A stretch of DNA of 64,000 nucleotides, taken from the NCBI RefSeq assembly GCF_000189635.1, contig NW_002476180.1, positions 166,940 through 230,939 on the forward strand. The letters run 5' to 3'. Positions 16,220 through 37,827 of the stretch are shown here, one piece after another. This DNA comes from Tetrahymena thermophila SB210. Lineage: Eukaryota > Ciliophora > Oligohymenophorea > Hymenostomatida > Tetrahymenidae. How positions within the stretch are numbered: the first letter of the stretch is position 1; each line of letters begins with the position of its first letter. Both the position numbers and the translations under genes were made by a program. The notes under the pieces were generated by a model. It saw nothing but the letters and a program-made list of their open reading frames with translations. It was not told where the DNA came from and did no database searches.

Positions 16220-19200
16220 TCAAGCAATACCAAAGCTTTCATTTCCATCTAAAATTGCTTAGAAAAGCTTCTTTTGCAAAATTTCTTTATCTTCATATTG
16301 AGGTAAATCGAGCTGATTGAAGCTTTTAGTTTTTTAATTTAAATAAATTTAAATTTTAAGATGAATAATAAATATTACCATGTATGAGCCACAGGCAAGT
16401 TTTGAGTATCGAAAATTTTACTAATTGTGAAACCCATATCTTTATATCCACCCAAAGGAATTTTATATGAGCCAGATAAAAAGAATAAGAATTTTCTTTT
16501 CATTTTATCATCAAATGTCATAAGAATTTCCCAAAACCATTAAATCAATGTACTAATTTCACTGTATCCTCCTTAATAAGTTGTATTTGCTCTTAATTCC
16601 TTAACTAAAATATTTATTCATTTAATCTATATTCTATCTTTAAAAAAAATTACAATCAATTTCTTATGCTCCTGCAATCTTAGTGCCAAGTTCCATCCAA
16701 TCAACTAGGTACAATTCAGATTTAGGGAATATACTGAAAAATCCTTCCAAGAAAGATTGAATTTGAGGCTAAATTTATTAGATCATTACATAATTAATCA
16801 ATTTATCTACATAATCTTTCTTATTTTAATCAGTAACATCAATATTTTTACCACCATTAATTAATTCAATTGTTTTTTTGTTGCCTATCTCTTCGAATTC
16901 ATATCTATTAATAAGATTTAATTATTTAATTAAGTAACATTTTGTGAAAAAATAAATTTTACATAAATGTTAGACATAAATCTTCAACAGGGTTTTCTAA
17001 TATCCAAAGGAGATTCTTAGTTAATTCTGGCTCAATATCATCTAAATCACTTATTTTTAATGGCTATCCAGTTAAATGCTTTAAAATAAATTTAGGGAAA
17101 TCTACTCCAACCAAATAACCTTCTAAGACGCTCTAGTTAAATAAAAAATTTAAAAATGTGATTATTTTTTATTAATTTATTTATTTGAATTTTACTTTTG
17201 CAATTATTTGACCTGAGAATTTGAATAAAGTTATATGATCCGGAACTAAGTATGAAGTAGTTGATGGGTAAACAATATATTTGTTAGAAGAAACTCTAAA
17301 AAGACCTTTGCGAGGGTCAAAAAGCTCCTTAGAAATACAAGAATACCATTCCCTTGTTAACCCACTTTGATCTATGCCATCTTCTTTACGGAACTTCACC
17401 TCAAATTACTTTTAAATAAGCTAGTGGGGCTTTTATCTCATAATAGTTTTAAAGGTATCTTCGAAGACACACTTTCTATCTACCTTTAGTGTTATAATTT
17501 CCATAGTACAATCTTATTCTTTTTAAGCCCTTTTAACAGCCTTTTAATGAATTGCATATAATCTTGTATCTAAATCTAAAGATCTAAGATTTTAAGGATC
17601 TTTAGAAACTACTCTTATATATTTTTGGAATAACTAATTGTCCATACCAACAAAAAGCTTTATAATTTAGCAAAATCCTTATTCCAAAATTCTCTTAAAT
17701 TCATCTACTTTCAAAATTTTATCTTCTTCTTCATTTACAATTTCAATCAATTTGTTTTAACTAATTAAAAATAAATAATCAATATTAATAAAAATTATAT
17801 AAAAAAACAAAAAAAAGGATGTGTTTTCATCAATAAAAATAATATTTAATTTAAATTTAAAAATATACTTGATAGCTTCAAACTTGGCAGAAGATTGCTG
17901 CTTTGAACTAATTCTTGCTAGCTCAGGTAAAGAATCAGATTGCTCAACATCTGATAATTGTAGGGCTACTAATGTATCAATGTCGTAATAAGGATGTAAC
18001 ATATACATAAGCTTAACAATTGGAATAAAAGACTAGAAAATTTATTATAATTCTCCATTTTCGTCATTATCTAAAACCGATGTTGACCCAGATTGTTTAA
18101 TTCCAATTATATTTGAATGTAAATATTATAATTATCTGAGGATATGAGTAAATAATTTCATTAAATTTTGATTATTTAAAACTTCTTGAAGCTTGATCAT
18201 TTCTGCTTTTTAGTCGCTTTTTTCAATTTTTTTAACTCGTTTGAAGTATAAACGCATTAAAGTTCTTAAATTGGCTGCAAAACTCTTAAAACTCTATAAA
18301 TGTAAAAAATATGTATTAAAAATATTTTCTTAATCTGTTTTAAATTTACTTCGTAAATTGGATTGAATTCTGTATCTGAAAAAATTTCATAAAGATGACT
18401 TAAAGCAAACTTTTTAGAGTTAGGGTCTTACTGTTGAAGTATTCTTTGAACATCACTAATACCTTTATTCATTAAATCTATTACATCTTGAATTAAAAAT
18501 TTAGACTAGCTTTCTATGAATTATTCTAGAATTGTAATAGTATATTTAGAGTGGCTGTTAAGTCCTTTTTTGAGGAAAGAATACAAAAAGCTTTTTGTGT
18601 TGAAATGGAGATTTTCAAAATAATAGTAGTGCAATATATTGTCTATATCAACTAAAAATATTTATACAAAGTTTAATATTTAAAAAGTGATTTAATAAAT
18701 AATATTAATTAATTACTTTATCTGATAACAGGGCTATAAATAGTGATTTGAGATTGACTTGGAGTGTCTTAAACTGATTTTCCTAAATCTATGTGGGTTG
18801 ATTTTATAAATTTAGATATTTAATTTAAGACTTAAATTTGCTTCTTATTTTCATAAATATCTACATATTTAAATTTATCTCCAAAGAGCATGATCAAAGT
18901 TTACAAGCCGCTCATTTGTTAATAATTTGTTATTTTTTTGAGTTTTTTAATTACAGATAGTTAAGGAAGGTACTACCAATGACTTGCATCTAATGTAAAG
19001 TATGCCAACAATTCGTTTTATTAGTTAGTACAAAATGTATTTCTAAAAAATGACATAGAATTGTCATATAATAATAAATAATTTTTCAAAAATAGTTGCT
19101 TTTCTCCTAACTTAGCAAAAAACTCTAAATCTTTATCATTTTTAAGCTCTTCATATTTGTCCAACTAAGGATTTACCAGCAAGAAGAATAAAGCATCCAT

Positions 19201-28704: not shown

Positions 28705-30123
28705 ATGTTAGGAAATTTAGATGAAATAGCGTAAAATAATCTAATTAAAGATTATGAACTTAAAGAAATAATTACAACCCTTACAGAAATTGGAATAAAG
28801 CCTTTGAAATTCTTGGGAATCTATAATGACTTTGTAGCTATTGAAACTAGAGAGGCAGAATAATGTTAGAATAGGTAGACATTAATAACCAACAATAAAA
28901 ACATTAGTGCTGATATGATTGATAAAATAGTAAAATCCTCTTGTCAAAGTTGTTATATTTCTTAATAAAGAACTTAAAAATATGAAATAATTCATATTCC
29001 TTCTGCAAAATATACTCTTAATGACTAAAATATTCATTACAAATTTAAAGACTTAGATAAAAAAAGCTTAATTGAAATATTTACAAGGATACTCTATGTT
29101 GTTATAAGTATGTAAAAGGATGATGATTATTATTTAGGAATTAATAAAGACTCTATCTTTTTTAAAAGAAATGGATAAGTATTTCTAAATTAATTTAATT
29201 TTAAGTCCATAGACAAAATTAAACATTTAATTTAAAACATGTTTGATGATGAATTCTTAATGTATTTACCACCTGAAATATTGCAAAATAGTCTGTATAA
29301 ATCTTCCTCTGATATTTACACCTTAGGATTATTTTTTTTAGAAATACTTGGACTCTAAATCGATAAGGAAGTTGCTCTTTAATTAAGTAATTCAAATTAC
29401 TAAATAACAAATTGTTTAAAGCATTAAGATTTAGTTAGCATTATAACCTAATATATGATATGCTAAGATTATTAAAAAAGATCATCATCAATAGATTTAT
29501 TTTGGCTTTTTAAATTTCAACTTGAGGAAAAGTTAAATATTTAAGAAATTTGTATGTTCATTCAATCTAATATTCAACTCAATAAAAATGTAATCAGTGA
29601 AATTCAAAATAGTTCCAAAAATATAAATCGTAGTAGAATAATCAGTGAATATAAAATTTTTGACAATCTGATTGATCTAGAATATTATTATTAAAATGGT
29701 TGTATAGTAACTTCATTAAAAGAATGTAATTTATAAATTTTAATTTTTGGAAATGAATTATCTGAATTCGAAAATAAATATATGACCATCAATATAGAAT
29801 TAGAGAGTGGCTACCCTTACAAATCTTCTCCGTTAATTCAATTTGAAAACGGTATTAATTCTATTTTATGTGGATAAAATAATCAAATTCTTTAAACTTT
29901 AAATATTGAGTGGTCACCTGCTACTACTATTAAAGCTTAAGTAATTACGGTTGCTAGTATTTTTAATAAATCAGCTAATGATATAATATCATTTTTTTAC
30001 TGTGAAGACAATCTAAATGAAATGAATAGTCAATTATTATCAGAGGAACTGAAAAAGTTGGGAGATGTAGATATTTTATACAATTAATATAAATCTTAAT
30101 TCTTATAGAAATATGCAAAATGA
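28705..30123 (+). CDS. Pseudokinase fused to inactive E2-like (UEV) domain
   Basis: Intronless, 472 residues, ATG 28705 to TGA 30121-30123. The N-terminal half has the outline of a protein kinase C-lobe. A catalytic-loop-like stretch (YLGINKDSIFFKRNGQVFL, ~141-159) has YLG where HRD should be and NQF where DFG should be. Then come an APE-like LPPEIL (P189, E191) and SSSDIYTLGLFFLEILG. No VAIK lysine is evident, so it is a predicted pseudokinase. The C-terminal ~120 residues match the ubiquitin-conjugating fold: NKYMTINIELESGYPYKSSP (Y370-P-Y-K for the usual YPFKPP), then IEWSPATTIKAQVITV (W403, for the E2 WSPALTI). The HPN motif and active-site Cys are replaced, as in UEV proteins. I know of no named family with this order. 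The E2 call is by motif only. Confidence 0.8.
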
Positions 30124-30684
30124 AATTATAAAAAATAGTATTTAATACTTATCTTTATATTTAATAGTAAGATTTGGCTATAAATGTTATTTTATTTTAT
30201 TCTATTTAAAAATTTTTTTAATTTATTGATAACTAATAGATAGTAAATAGATATTTGGGGATAGAAATTCAAGAAAAATTTTAATTAAAAATAAAAAAAA
30301 TATTAAATATTTAAAAAATAATATATTATTAAAATTCATTTTATTTTCCAACCCTAGCTAGAATTATATATTATTTTTGAAGTTTTTTAAAAATAAAAAA
30401 AAGAGTAATATTAGAAAAAAGATAATAAGTCTACTTATTTAGTGCTTTGTTATAAATGTTTGTTTTTGTTAATATTAATTACAAATACGTATTATTAGAA
30501 TCAGTTTTTATAATCTTTGTTAAACAAATAAAAGGAAGTGGAATCAGAATAGTTATTTTAATATTGTAATTTCCATCAATAATTTTTTAAGTTAATCAAA
30601 AAATTGAAAAAATAACTATCAATTATTTTATCAATTAATAAAAAGCATAATAAATAAGTAATTTTTTATAATTATTAAAGTTAA
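30124..30684. other. Intergenic, promoter region of channel gene
   Basis: 561 bp of AT-rich DNA between two plus-strand genes. Nothing recognised. Confidence 0.6.
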
Positions 30685-33600
30685 ATGTCTTTTTCTTTTT
30701 ACGATGAATAATATGGTGAGTCTACATAGAACAGAATTTAAAAATCTTAAAAAATTTAAGTAGGAAGATGTATTTAAAATTATGACAATAGTATTCTATA
30801 TGGAATCAGCTCTATTAATAAGGCAAATAAAGAGTATGACCACATTATTGATAACGATAAGGAAAAAGATGGTAATTTAATGAAAAAATAAGATGATTTG
30901 AGATTAGGAGAAAAAAAGAGATAATAATGGCTTTTAGATATTATACCTTCCAAAGTTTATTCATCGTCTAAATTAGAATTATCTAACATTCAGTATGAAA
31001 GTTGCTTAGATAAAAAGCTAGACTAAAGCTTAGATGAAAGTAGAATTATTGAATAAATACAAGAAGGTACTCCTGAAACTTTTACTAATACTTATACAGT
31101 TCAAGATTAAACTCATTTTATACAGAGACAATAAATGAATTAAAGCTTTTAAACAGAAAATTAAGACATTCTTAGTTTGAATTCTTAGTTTAGTGGAATG
31201 AGAAAACCTACCTTCAAGAATTCTGCTAAAATGTCATAGTTTTAAAATAATTAAACTTTAAAAAAAAAACAGAGCTATAGACAAAAATTTGGCAGTTAAA
31301 ATTAAGAAGAAGATAAAGACTAAGAAAGAAAGAGTGAGTTAAAGATTAGAAATAAAAGAACTTCTCACGAGGTGTGGCTCTAAGGGTTTTTTATTATTTT
31401 GATATTTGTAAATCGTTTTATATTTAAAAGCAAAAAGAAGTTAATCTTTTTTAAACCCTAGATGCTAAAACAAAACTAACTTCAAGCAATAAACGATATA
31501 GGTAAATAATTAATTATTGTTATTAAATAAATATAAAAAAATGATAAACTCAATAACTCACTCAAATAAAAAGTATATATAAATTAATAATTAATTAATT
31601 TTTATATCAAAAAGCTTCAAGTTATAAGAGTAAAAAAGAAGATTAAGCTAAATAAGAAAAAATATTTCCAAGGTCGAGGTGGATTTTTAGAAAAATGAGA
31701 ATTTAATACTTAATTTTTAGGAAAAAAATGAAAAAGTGTATCATACCTATAAATTAGTGTTTATAAAAGTTAAAGAGCTTCATAATAAAGTTACTTCATC
31801 CTATACCAGTGATTCTTCCATTCTATAAAATATCTTTAATTTGGGATTTAATCTCTATATTATTCATCTAAATAAATAGCTTTATTATTCCTTTTGAGAT
31901 AGCATTCCTCAATGGCGATACATTTGACGAAAATTTAAAGATAGTTAGCATGATTATTTTTTTTATCAATTTTTTTATGGTCTTAAATACAGCTTATTAT
32001 GAAAATGGAATTTTATAAAAGAATAGAATTAATATTCTGATCAACTTCACAAACAAGCATTTAATAATTGAGTTTTTAGCTTTCATATGTCTTTATTATA
32101 ATCCTTTTGGCATAGCTTTACTGAGAATTTTATTTTTGATCAAATTTTTTTAATTTTATGAAACTGTATAAAATCTTATAGAGTCTCTCTAATTATCAGA
32201 TAAATATTACTTTTTAATTCACTTGGTTACACTTCTTTTTGAGATTATTTTTCTTTGTCATATATTTGCTTGCACTTGGTATGGTATTGGTTAATTTTAG
32301 CTAAATTAGAATATGTTTCCTAATTGGATTGATTCGTATGGAATTAATAATCTAGTCATAGGTTCTAGATATGTCCAGTCAGTTTATTTTGCAATAGTGA
32401 CAGTAGGTACTATTGGATATGGAGACATAAATCCGAAAAGCGATATTGAAAAAATCTTTATATCAACTATGACCTTACTATCATGTGGTGTTTTTGCTTA
32501 TATAATAAGTAATATACAGGATGTTTACAGAGATTATAACAAAAAGAAAGAAAGGTTTTTGGTTAATTTAACTGAATTAAATAAATACATGTTTACTAGA
32601 GACGTAAATCCTAATTTACAACAGATGGCTAGAAAATATTTAGAGTATGTCCATAAATAAGATTTTAAAAGAGGAGAAGTGCCTAATTAAACTTTAAACT
32701 CTCTAAGTAAATTCTTAAGAGAAGAAATTTGTGAAGAGATATTCTCTAGATCCTTAGGAAACATACAAATATTTTAAAAATTCAGTCCTTAAATATAAAA
32801 AGCTCTAGCATCTAAAATGAAGGAGACAATTTATGGTAAATATATTTAACTAATTAAATTATTATTTAAGTTATTAAAGTAACATTAAAATATTAATTTT
32901 TTTCATCAATTTTGATATATGTAAATACTTCATTTTTTTAATTGGGAAAAATTAATTTTCTATCAAATTTAAATTGAAAATAACCCTGCTACTATTAAAA
33001 TAAATTTTTTTTACAATTCAAATTTAACAAAAATATTTTTTAGATTTAAAAAAATTTTTAATAATTTTTAGTAAAGAAAATATTTTGTAAATTAATGTTA
33101 GTATTTTATAATAATAAAAGTCATATTATTAATTTAATTTTTTTTATAGGGCCTGATGAAATGATTTTAAAGAAAGGATAATTTTCTACTCCTGCTTTAT
33201 ACTATATTTTTAAAGGCAAAGTGGAAGTCACTATTGAGCAAGGGAATAAAATATGTTAAGATTTTAATAATTTAACTTAATAGTAGTCATTCTTTTAGTT
33301 AAATGAAAAAAGTACGTTTGGATAAGCTGAATTCTTTTCGTAATCTCATGAAACTTCTCTGAATGTGAAAAGTTTAAACATAACCACTGTACATATTTTA
33401 TACCTAAATGATTTTCAAGAAACAATTAAGCATTATGTTAATGATAAAGAAATATATTAAGAATTAAAAGATAAGTTAAATAATTATCAAGACTATTCAA
33501 GTAGTGGAATTTTTTGCTATTCTTGTAAAAGTAGTGACCATGTAATTAGTGATTGTCCTATTTTCTTTTATAAACCAAATAAGTAGAGAGTGGTAAATTA

Positions 33601-34561
33601 ATATCTCAAAGTTTACGACCAAGCAAAGAAGTAGATTGAAAGGTCTTGTTAAAGATTTAGTTTAAATGCATTAGCCTTTTAATATGATATAGAAGAAGAT
33701 TGCAAATATTTTAGAGAAATTAACTTCAATCAACATGAAAGTGATATAGCTGATTCTGTAAATTAAAGTTAAGACACATAAAATTAAATCCAATACAATT
33801 ATAGTAATTCATAAAGACTGATTTACAATTAATAGAAATCTGATATTGATAAAAACTAAAAAGTAACTTTTTTTGAAGTAGATCAGCATGACAAGCATAA
33901 TGATATAAATTCAGAAAAACAAAAAGAAATAAATAAGGCAAGATCTGAATTAGATTGGAATAATTATCATCAAAATCAAAATGCAGACAATGTTTATTGT
34001 AGTAGTAACTATAATTTAGATGCTCCAAAAATTGTAATTGAAACTATTTAAAATAGCTAAATTTTACCTTAGATACAATAAAACCAACAGCTCAATGAGA
34101 GTTAAATTTAATAGCCACAATAATCATAATAGAATTAGTAGTCATCATAGATGTACTTATAAGTAAGAAGTTAAAGAGAGGAATTCATAAAAAGAGTATC
34201 ACTGAGAAATACAAGATGTAAGAATAATTTAGCTATCGAAAAAAAAATAGATGAAAAATAGATTGATGGCAAAAAATTAAGCATCATTCACTTGAAAGAA
34301 GGATTATAATTAACTAATAATTCTAAAAACTCTTTAGCAATTGACATGATTAAAAAAGTTTTAGATCAGATGCAAAAAATAAACTCCAAAAAAGCCTTAA
34401 AATTACAAGGATGTGAAATTGATGATTTTATTGCAGAGTCAGTGAAGAATTTTAAATTTTATATGACGCACAATAACATTGTTTAAGTTATTTAATCTTA
34501 CAACAAGTACTATAGTTTAAAGAGCAAAAAAAAAAGAAGGATCACTATATATTAATAATGA
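30685..34561 (+). CDS. Cyclic-nucleotide-binding K+ channel (KCNH/CNG-like)
   Basis: Membrane potassium channel subunit of 1149 residues from three exons (30685-31501, 31615-32835, 33150-34561), all phase-consistent. It has a ~270-residue polar cytoplasmic N-tail, six membrane segments, and a pore with filter TIGYGD at about 538-543 (VTVGTIGYGDINP), typical of K+ selectivity. A C-linker follows (FLVNLTELNKYMFTRDVNP), then a cyclic-nucleotide-binding fold from about residue 680 (LKKGQFSTPALYYIFKGKVE, STFGQAEFFS). S4 is poor in charge (IALLRILFLIKFFQ, one R and one K), so voltage sensing is probably weak. After the binding domain is a CCHC knuckle (CYSCKSSDHVISDC, C802-C815), then a long Q/N-rich tail. 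Ciliates have large families of such channels. It fits membrane excitability or ciliary control, by family only. Confidence 0.92.
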
Positions 34562-34954: not shown

Positions 34955-36736
34955 TCAAATTTTTTGTTCTATTTTTTGCAATTCCCTCTCAATTTTTAAT
35001 GCCTCTTACTCTCTATTTTACTTTCTATATACCCTGCACAATTTTTTATAACAGCTAGATAACATATTACTTTTATCTCCAAATAAAAATTTGTTCATTT
35101 TTAAGCAATCTTCATAATATAATACACTCATTTGTATGTCTCCTTAGTTTTCATAAGCAACTCCTAAATTTTCAAAGCAAGCAGATATATCTGGATGCTC
35201 TTAGAAATTATATATTTTTTGAAATACTTCTATTGATTTTTAATAGTAATTTATTGATTCTTCAAACTGTTTAAGACCAGATTTCATACAAGCAATTGTA
35301 CATAAACAATCACCTATTTCTTTAACAAAATAATCCTTATATATTTTTTCATAAATTTCTTTTGCCTTTATAGCTAGCTTTAATCCCTTTTTTTCTTTTC
35401 CAAAAGCTTTATAACACCATGATAGTTCTAATAAGGATTTTGCATAAACATCACTTTGTGATTTATTAATTTTTTTGGCTAACTTTAAAGCTTTTTTACC
35501 ATAAACTAAAGAAGTTTTATACTCTTTTAATTATTTATAGTTATAACAAATTTGTTAATACTAAAATATAATATCTTTCTAACTTGAAGATTTAATTTAG
35601 TTGTATAATATAAGAGATTATTACCTATACTAATTTGATTTTTCGTACATTCCCATCTCTGTTAATTTTGATGCAGTACATGATAATACTTCTGCCTTTA
35701 ATTTAACAGGAATATTCTTTATTTTTTCATATATAAAGCTTAATGTTTTTAAATATTATAGTTAAATGTTCAATAAAAATGGTGGATTTTTACCATTATC
35801 AAATGTTTCATAATTATCTACTTCATAAATTATGGGTATAAATCTTTATAAATTTGATTATGTAAAAGGAAGCCAAGGTAAAATTTTATTTATAATATCA
35901 TATGATTAAAAGTCATCATTAACATCAGATGTTAAAAATTTATTTTTTATTATTTATTAAATATTCTGATATTGAATTTCATTTATATTTTATTTATAAA
36001 TATTGGTTTGAATTTATTTAATATCATTATTGTTATTTAAATTACAGCCTATTATTTCTAAGAATAGCCTTCCTGCACACTAAATATCTTTTTGATAAAA
36101 TAGATAATTTTAGTGATTATTTTTATTATCAAGTTACTTCTACTAATCTTTTATTTCATAAATATAGCCTTCAGCTTAAAATAAATCAGACTAGTGAGAT
36201 GGTATTTTAAAACAGTGCTTAAAGTTACTTAGCTTGTATGTTCCGTTTGACGAGATAATTATATTTTTAGAATTTATGTGTTGATGGGAAATTTTATTGT
36301 AGTGAATCATACAAATAGCATGGGAAATTTATAAAATAATTTCAGTCATAACTTCTGCAGTATGTAATTTATTTTTATTTTTAAGTTCTTACATTTCATC
36401 AAATAGGTTTTTTTAAGGATATTCTTGAACAATTATGCAAATAAAACAATCTTTTATTACAATCATATCGAAAACTAATATTATATTTTTATATGATTTT
36501 AATTATTGCATTATTACATATTCCTTTTGTAATTTATCATACTCTTCCTAGCTATTCTATGAAATCCTTAAAATGACGCGTTATTAATGTTTTAAAGAAT
36601 ATGCTGTGAGGTGTTATTCTTAATCAATAAAATCTATAAATTATAATTTTTAGTAACCCTATTTTTCTAATTCTTATTCAGTTGTCTTTAAAATATTTTC
36701 TTCTAATTTTACAAATTTTTTCCAATCTTCGCTCAT
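34955..36736 (-). CDS. Pseudokinase with C-terminal TPR repeats
   Basis: 579 residues in two exons (36736-35625 and 35582-34955) around a 42-bp intron. The kinase-like half begins MSEDWKKFVKLEEN. It shows a degenerate VAIK (RVILRIS, Arg for Lys), a helix-C Glu (QKEYVIM), a hinge-like IIVQEY, a catalytic loop ISHQHINSKNIII without the HRD Asp, and LSNFKH in place of DFG. It should therefore not phosphorylate. The C-terminal ~230 residues contain tetratricopeptide-type helical pairs, for example KSLLELSWCYKAFGKEKKGLKLA and ACFENLGVAYENQGD. They end in a charged helix IERELQKIEQKI. The likely role is a scaffold; partners are unknown. Splice sites were chosen by frame. Confidence 0.82.
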
Positions 36737-37827
36737 TTATAAATTAGGTATTAATTTTTACTAATTTTATCTGTTTATTTATAAAACATCAACTTTTTAA
36801 TATCTTCAATTTTTGTGTGTTGTTTAAATTCTTTTATAATTTTATCATATAAGTACCTTAAAACTAGACTTAACTATTTAAGTTAAAGTATTTTGATTTA
36901 TCTTAAAACAATATATGAATAAATTAAATTCCTTCATATATCTATTATACTACTAATTTTGATAAAATAATAATTTAAGACAATTAATTATACTGTTTTT
37001 AAATAAAAAAAAAATCAAAAAAATTTTTTTTTTTTTTGAATTAATTAGAATAAAATTAATTTTTTGATAAATATCAATACTCTAAATAAATAATATTCAT
37101 CATTTTTTAATAAAAATAAAATAAATCAATAGAAATTATTTTGAAAAAAATAATTGTCAAAGAATTATTTTATATTTTTAAAAATTAATATAAATTTTAA
37201 GTTTTAAAAATAAAATAAATTAATATAAAAATTAGAATATTAATAAATAAAATAACATATTTGTTTTTTTATTTAAATTAGAAGAATAAAAATTATGGTG
37301 AAATAAATAAATTTTTTCTTAATTGCCAAGTTATGTGTTAATTTTTTATTTTTGTAGGGTATTAGAGATAATTAATTAAAAATGAAATGATTATTCAATA
37401 ATTTAAAAATAATTTTTTAATTTCATATGAGATATTTACTATAAAAGGTATTAAATATTATTTAGGACATGTTAAAATAAATTTAATAGGCTTTTAAGAT
37501 ACTTACAAAAGCTTATATATTTTAAATATATCTTTAAATCTTAAAATCTATATACAAATCAAGTAGAGTAAAAAGATGTATAGATAGATAATTTATTTTG
37601 TTTATTATCACTCACTCATCAATAGTATCAGAATATAAAAGAGAAGTTTTTAAATTTACAAATTTTTTGAAAAATTAAATTACTTTCAAAAATAAAAATA
37701 AATATTATTGCAATTTGATTATCAATAGGAATATCATTTCTACCCTAAACAATTAAAGCAAATAAATAATTGAAAGCAAGCAAATTTTAGGTACAGAATT
37801 ATAACAAACAGATTTTAAGATAATAAG
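36737..37827. promoter_or_regulatory. Divergent intergenic region (pseudokinase-TPR / APC1)
   Basis: 1.09 kb between two divergent starts, so it must hold both promoters. Long A and T runs occur, including a T13 tract with its flanking A-run near 37007-37040. No gene or named element was seen. Confidence 0.5.

Follow-up and report, generated by a model that had tools for sequence, protein, structure and literature searches.

A single open reading frame of Tetrahymena thermophila SB210 (28705 to 30123, plus strand; 472 codons, then TGA under NCBI code 6) very probably encodes a protein in which two dead domains, one kinase-like and one E2-like, are joined in one chain. All positions are those of the window, the whole stretch of 64,000 nucleotides that was analysed. 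An earlier note on this DNA had read the frame as a pseudokinase joined to an E2-like domain that lacks its cysteine, and Pfam matches, profile scores set against those of shuffled sequences, and alignments bear out that proposal. Structure prediction agrees with it as well, the C-terminal part being modelled as a UBC fold and the N-terminal part as a kinase C-lobe; the outcome that the note had named as refuting it, a C-terminal part lacking the UBC fold, did not arise.

The frame is unbroken, as the earlier note had described it: under code 6 it runs stop-free through 472 residues (28705 to 30120) and closes with TGA at 30121-30123. Since table 11 places 28 stops ahead of the last one in the same frame, the ciliate code, with TAA and TAG as glutamine, was assumed for 28705 to 30123; read with code 6, several further open reading frames (ORFs) in the window match Pfam families clearly. 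TGA makes up 1.74% of all window triplets on both strands, a frequency from which the chance of 472 open codons is ~2.5e-4 per given start. Codon scoring, with five other window ORFs as the training set, gave log-odds above zero in all nine 150-base segments from 28714 to 30063, and the query frame was the top of six frames in eight of them, with a minus frame scoring slightly higher in the segment 29164-29313. The following segment (30064-30213) scores negative, with 57 of its 150 bases coding and the other 93 lying beyond the coding end. The ATG at 28705 is preceded by an A-rich stretch, and the frame stays open upstream to 28414; because the part between 28414 and 28705 has a low GC content (0.15 to 0.19) and no clear codon bias, 28705 is likely the start of the 472-codon frame.

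The run of 472 codons free of TGA and the in-frame codon bias of 9/9 segments up to 30063 argue against a decaying or very young functionless gene, in which duplicates of a kinase and of an E2 were fused by chance and are losing both active sites. Such an origin would fit the loss of both catalytic centers, the faintness of both homologies, and the searches of viral and prokaryotic contig collections, where no homologue was found for the full chain (viral and genome contigs) or for the C-terminal half (viral contigs), collections of viruses and prokaryotes being uninformative on ciliates. It fits poorly with the retention of structural landmarks while catalytic ones are lost, and we consider it improbable.

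A short linker separates the two domains (around residues 291 to 311; 29575 to 29637, plus strand), in the same frame and with a GC content like that of its flanks, and the codon-bias signal does not drop where the kinase-like and E2-like halves meet. Two separate genes read as one were considered and rejected, given a linker of about 20 residues, no TGA between the halves, and continuous codon bias. A scan for introns, limited to the donor/acceptor form GTA[AT]G[TA]...TAG, gave candidate pairs at 29108 and 29552, some with lengths divisible by three. Their GC content (0.20 to 0.24) is not below that of the gene, and since the candidate GT-AG pairs are no poorer in GC than the gene, an intron at the junction is not indicated.

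The pseudokinase region covers roughly residues 25 to 290 (28777 to 29574, plus strand). Its C-lobe (about residues 115 to 284) is well supported; its N-lobe (25 to 110) is uncertain and is placed there by inference. Pfam Pkinase matched the N-terminal half at residues 185-247 (E 5.6e-4, 19.8 bits, under the cut-off of 31.7) and the whole chain with an E value of 0.0022, likewise under the cut-off. In a phmmer search of the PDB, the N-terminal half matched 31 distinct sequences at E <= 10 over about residues 113 to 265, the best being PAK6 (E 0.0049), followed by NEK1 and STK24. A profile of 10 fetched kinases scored this half at 14.6 bits, compared with 8.1 for the top of 4,000 shuffles, of which hmmsearch scored 3,241, the remainder falling under its report limit. 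Applied to the ORFs of the window, the kinase profile gave 37.3 for another kinase-like ORF, 13.2 for that of the query, and 4.9 for the next. The kinase homology is weaker than the E2 match described below, yet above chance.

For the model of this half, an alignment of 10 of the 16 kinase loci was used (A7); L003 and L018 were omitted because their N-lobe was truncated, L010 because it is near to L008, and L004, L011, and L016 by choice. Two other alignments of the N-terminal half (A4 and A6) were not used for folding, their N-lobe being poorly aligned, and a joint full-chain alignment with kinases and E2s (A5) was misaligned and discarded. AlphaFold2 with the 12 rows of A7 gave a model with a mean pLDDT of 66.1 and a pTM of 0.65, in which the ten-residue blocks over residues 115 to 284 reach pLDDT values of 61 to 91, and eight of the first nine blocks, in the N-lobe, stay at 50 or below, the remaining one at 62. 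Foldseek returned 1,999 matches at E <= 10 (1,727 at E <= 0.001), the best 50 of the 1,999 being kinase structures, for a model of moderate confidence that its kinase alignment leaned toward the kinase fold.

The C-lobe marks named in the earlier note are in place, and the catalytic motifs that it had reported missing are indeed replaced. At the APE position (29269 to 29277, plus strand) the chain reads P189-P190-E191, with P190 and E191 retained; SDIYTLG follows at residues 202 to 208 (29308 to 29328, plus strand), its F-helix aspartate D203 being invariant in A7, and R259 farther downstream is nearly invariant there. In alignment with PAK6 and NEK1, the HRD position (29131 to 29139, plus strand) reads Y143-L144-G145, without the catalytic aspartate, and in alignment with PAK6 the DFG position (29191 to 29199, plus strand) reads Q163-F164-N165, without the metal-binding aspartate. 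MAFFT puts K74 at the position of the beta-3 lysine, where confidence of the model is low. With YLG and QFN at these sites, the domain is a pseudokinase in the sense of having lost at least one of the beta-3 lysine, the HRD aspartate, and the DFG aspartate.

The other kinase-like ORF of the window, on the minus strand (34958 to 36805), carries TPR repeats (TPR_12 2.9e-18, Pkinase 2.5e-9), and its kinase also looks inactive, with HQH for HRD and NFK for DFG. Paralogy of the query with this pseudokinase was rejected: BLASTP of the kinase regions gave 24.3 bits, equal to the best of 500 shuffles (341 of which gave a match), and the full chains gave 25.0 bits. Elsewhere in the window, a minus-strand ORF at 16902 to 18386 matches the HECT ligase model (E 5.6e-15) at its positions 3-114 of 306 only, the remaining part probably lying in another frame or exon. 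On the plus strand, at 31545 to 34558, an ORF matches an ion channel model (Ion_trans 7.6e-15) and is followed in another frame by a weak cNMP_binding match (7.4e-4, under the cut-off); the two are perhaps one channel gene of the cyclic-nucleotide-gated type split by an intron.

The E2-like (UBC) domain was analysed as residues 301 to 472 (29605 to 30120, plus strand) through Pfam UQ_con, phmmer against the PDB, and a model searched with Foldseek. UQ_con (PF00179) matched the C-terminal half with an E value of 4.4e-7 and 30.0 bits, over its cut-off of 27 by a small margin, and the whole chain with 2.1e-6 and 27.9 bits; it was the sole Pfam family for this half at E <= 10. Neither UEV (PF05743), the TSG101-type model, nor RWD (PF05773) matched the half at E <= 10, an absence to be read with the HMMER filters in mind, which drop weak matches. 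RWD matched weakly in four of four other E2s, and an RWD domain in place of UBC was ruled out for the half of the query by this lack of a match. In phmmer against the PDB, each of the best 60 of 134 rows was a ubiquitin-conjugating enzyme, the first at E 7.1e-4. With a profile built from 12 fetched E2s the half scored 30.8 bits, compared with 10.3 for the top of 4,000 shuffles (2,964 of them scored by hmmsearch, the remainder under its report limit), 9.2 for the highest-scoring of the 180 remaining window ORFs with at least 150 amino acids, and -0.8 for the reversed chain.

The alignment for this half (A3) took 12 of 24 distinct E2 loci, L001 and L002 being the same. Left out were L021 and L023, with stops within the match, the divergent L038 to L041, and L025, L029, L031, L033, L034, and L036, judged by eye to lie close to included rows. 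From its 13 rows AlphaFold2 gave a model (mean pLDDT 64.3, pTM 0.55) that passes from helices at the N-terminus through four strands to further helices, the order expected for UBC. Foldseek against the PDB gave 643 matches at E <= 10 (152 at E <= 0.001), and each of the best 50 of the 643 was an E2 or an E2-containing complex, with a best E value of 2.1e-5 and TM scores of 0.41 to 0.57 by query length. As A3 holds the query and E2s only, the model, of moderate confidence, leaned toward the E2 fold and is not independent of the sequence. Judged by its sequence, the half is homologous to E2s without being an active one.

Some of the loci collected for comparison are noteworthy in themselves. Three Pseudomonas loci encode strong E2 homologues (L019:896-1342, L020:899-1345, and L022:902-1345; UQ_con E 4.1e-46 to 1.3e-48) that keep HPN and have Ala, Gly, or Thr at the position of the catalytic cysteine, and the site of L019 and L020 looks shared, since similar ORFs flank both on either side. 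On a viral contig (IMGVR_UViG_3300010885_064935; L001:905-1369) lies the gene of a full E2 that has both HPN and the cysteine; over 79 residues it shares 72% identity with a fragment of a Toxoplasma E2 (PDB 2ayv).

How much of an E2 has been retained in the query? Alignment to human UBE2D2 puts S386-I387-L388 at the HPN position (29860 to 29868, plus strand) and I395 at the catalytic cysteine (29887 to 29889, plus strand), in keeping with the losses that the earlier note had listed beside the E2 marks YPYK and WSPATTI, both present. None of the five active-site positions H75, P76, N77, C85, and D87 of UBE2D2 is kept (S, I, L, I, and Q in the query); D117 and L119, near the active site, face D and L at a place where the alignment has an insertion. 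The cysteine nearest to the catalytic position is C389, opposite I78 of UBE2D2 and six residues ahead of the usual site, and it is hardly credible as a displaced ubiquitin-accepting cysteine. Structural parts remain: helix 1 (K317-C333 against R5-C21 of UBE2D2) aligns gap-free with 5 of 17 residues identical, and QKYA at residues 468 to 471 (30106 to 30117, plus strand) ends the C-terminal E2 helix as in UBE2D2. YPYK at residues 370 to 373 (29812 to 29823, plus strand) places P371 and Y372 at P61 and F62 of the E3-contact loop of UBE2D2, and WSPATTI at residues 403 to 409 (29911 to 29931, plus strand) retains the S-P-A of an E3-contact loop.

In the excerpt of the UbcH5a-CHIP structure report that was available (PMC2396629), the E2 contacts include R5, P61, F62, S94, P95, and A96. 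These six positions read K, P, Y, S, P, and A in the query, four of them identical and the other two, R5 to K and F62 to Y, similar changes. At a background of 25% the identity of four in six has a p of ~0.04, for positions picked after the alignment had been seen, and folding alone may account for the retention of P61, P95, and S94. The conservation of the ligase patch is a modest lead, not proof.

The earlier note had thought of UEV proteins as partners of active E2s, and the half would then pair with an active E2, as MMS2/UEV1 pairs with UBC13, and hold the acceptor ubiquitin while the pseudokinase places the pair. The absence of the catalytic cysteine and of HPN suits this proposal, as does the loss of the GG turn: P44-Y45-x-G47-G48 of UBE2D2 corresponds to E-F-x-N-K in the query and N-Y-x-N-R in MMS2, and the full E-F-E-N-K is much like the N-Y-E-N-R of MMS2. 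Chain C of 3e95, from the Plasmodium PfUBC13-PfUev1a complex, stands at Foldseek rank 16, and this chain matches MMS2. In BLASTP, however, the C-terminal half scored 39.7 bits with UBE2D2, over its own residues 42-171, and with MMS2 24.6 bits over 40 residues, pair scores that compare one active E2 with one UEV. At the S-P-A shared by the query and UBE2D2, MMS2 reads Q-N-S, and its short C-terminus is without the C-terminal E2 helix that the query retains. The Pfam UEV model, as stated above, also gave no match at E <= 10. The pairing with an active E2 is less supported than the presence of both halves in one frame, and we regard it as unlikely; the kinase-regulated platform that the note had suggested is speculative.

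Like MMS2 and UEV1 of the UBE2V family, the query combines a UBC fold, here predicted, with the absence of a catalytic cysteine, and it is a UEV in that general sense; unlike them, it is fused to a kinase-like domain. Membership in the MMS2/UEV1 subfamily is not indicated, given the higher score with UBE2D2 and the presence of the C-terminal helix. With UBE2D2 the query shares helix 1, YP, WSPA, and the C-terminal helix, and UBE2D chains are among its best matches; Cys85, HPN, and D87 of UBE2D2 are absent. The UBC half resembles an ordinary E2 of the active type, without its active site but with much of the surface by which E2s grip RING and U-box ligases.

Carrying ubiquitin is impossible for an E2 that has lost its cysteine, and no phosphate transfer is expected of a kinase that lacks the aspartates of HRD and DFG. 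Since all of these residues are lost, we infer that the protein is unable to phosphorylate or to carry ubiquitin and works by binding. Our preferred reading, a tentative one, is that of a scaffold in which the dead E2 serves to dock a ubiquitin ligase and transfers no ubiquitin. The UBC half would bind the ligase and act as a decoy, a brake, or a recruiting handle, and the pseudokinase half would bind another partner. What makes ligase docking the first choice is the identity of four of the six CHIP-contact positions, set against none of the five active-site positions kept. That the chain stands for a conserved ciliate class, in which a dead E2 with a ligase-docking face is carried by a pseudokinase and links kinase-type scaffolding to ligases, is more doubtful.

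Regulation through binding is known both for pseudokinases and for inactive E2s, and ciliates have very large sets of kinase genes. A chain that joins both dead enzymes would offer a simple case of a scaffold that links phosphorylation to ubiquitin pathways, and it would suggest that, in the ciliate lineage, an E2 can be retained for its ligase-docking face alone. It would be of little importance if it were a lone decaying gene.

Among known architectures, the nearest involves the RWD domain, which is related to the UBC fold. GCN2 has the domain order RWD, pseudokinase, kinase, HisRS-like, and CTD, as given in the available part of PMC6824675, and so resembles the query, on that description, in holding a noncatalytic UBC-related fold and a pseudokinase domain in one chain. 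The order is reversed in the query, whose second domain is of the UQ_con type rather than RWD by Pfam and whose 472 residues comprise two domains, without an active kinase, HisRS, or CTD. AKTIP/FTS is likewise an E2 variant without the catalytic cysteine, with Asp at that site and HPL for HPN in the accessible text of PMC4481533, a likeness drawn by description only; AKTIP keeps the HP of HPN, which the query has lost, and that text mentions no AKTIP kinase domain.

As GCN2 already joins RWD and a pseudokinase, the general idea of setting a UBC-related fold next to a pseudokinase has a precedent, and the query might be a plain module of the GCN2 or AKTIP kind, whose UBC-like fold binds a partner unrelated to ubiquitin and whose pseudokinase serves as a regulatory or scaffold surface. 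The RWD of GCN2 binds GCN1 (PMC6824675, part available), and AKTIP, through its UEV domain, binds TRF1 and TRF2 directly (PMC4481533, accessible text). The reversed order, the lack of an active kinase or HisRS part in the 472-residue chain, and the lack of an RWD match at E <= 10 in the Pfam search of the C-terminal half point the other way, and this reading is rather doubtful.

Divergent protist pseudokinases, such as those of the Nek expansion of Giardia (PMC3218828), form another near system, in which the excerpt of the source mentions no UBC domain, and any Nek relation of the query is one of single PDB matches. A review likens UEVs and pseudokinases as parallel inactive enzymes and, in the portion available, describes no fusion of the two (PMC3014569). 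The literature searched, through titles and abstract openings of the hits listed and mostly without subscription papers, names no pseudokinase-E2 fusion. Set beside these systems, the query is a real combination of two known kinds of dead enzyme, and probably an unusual one.
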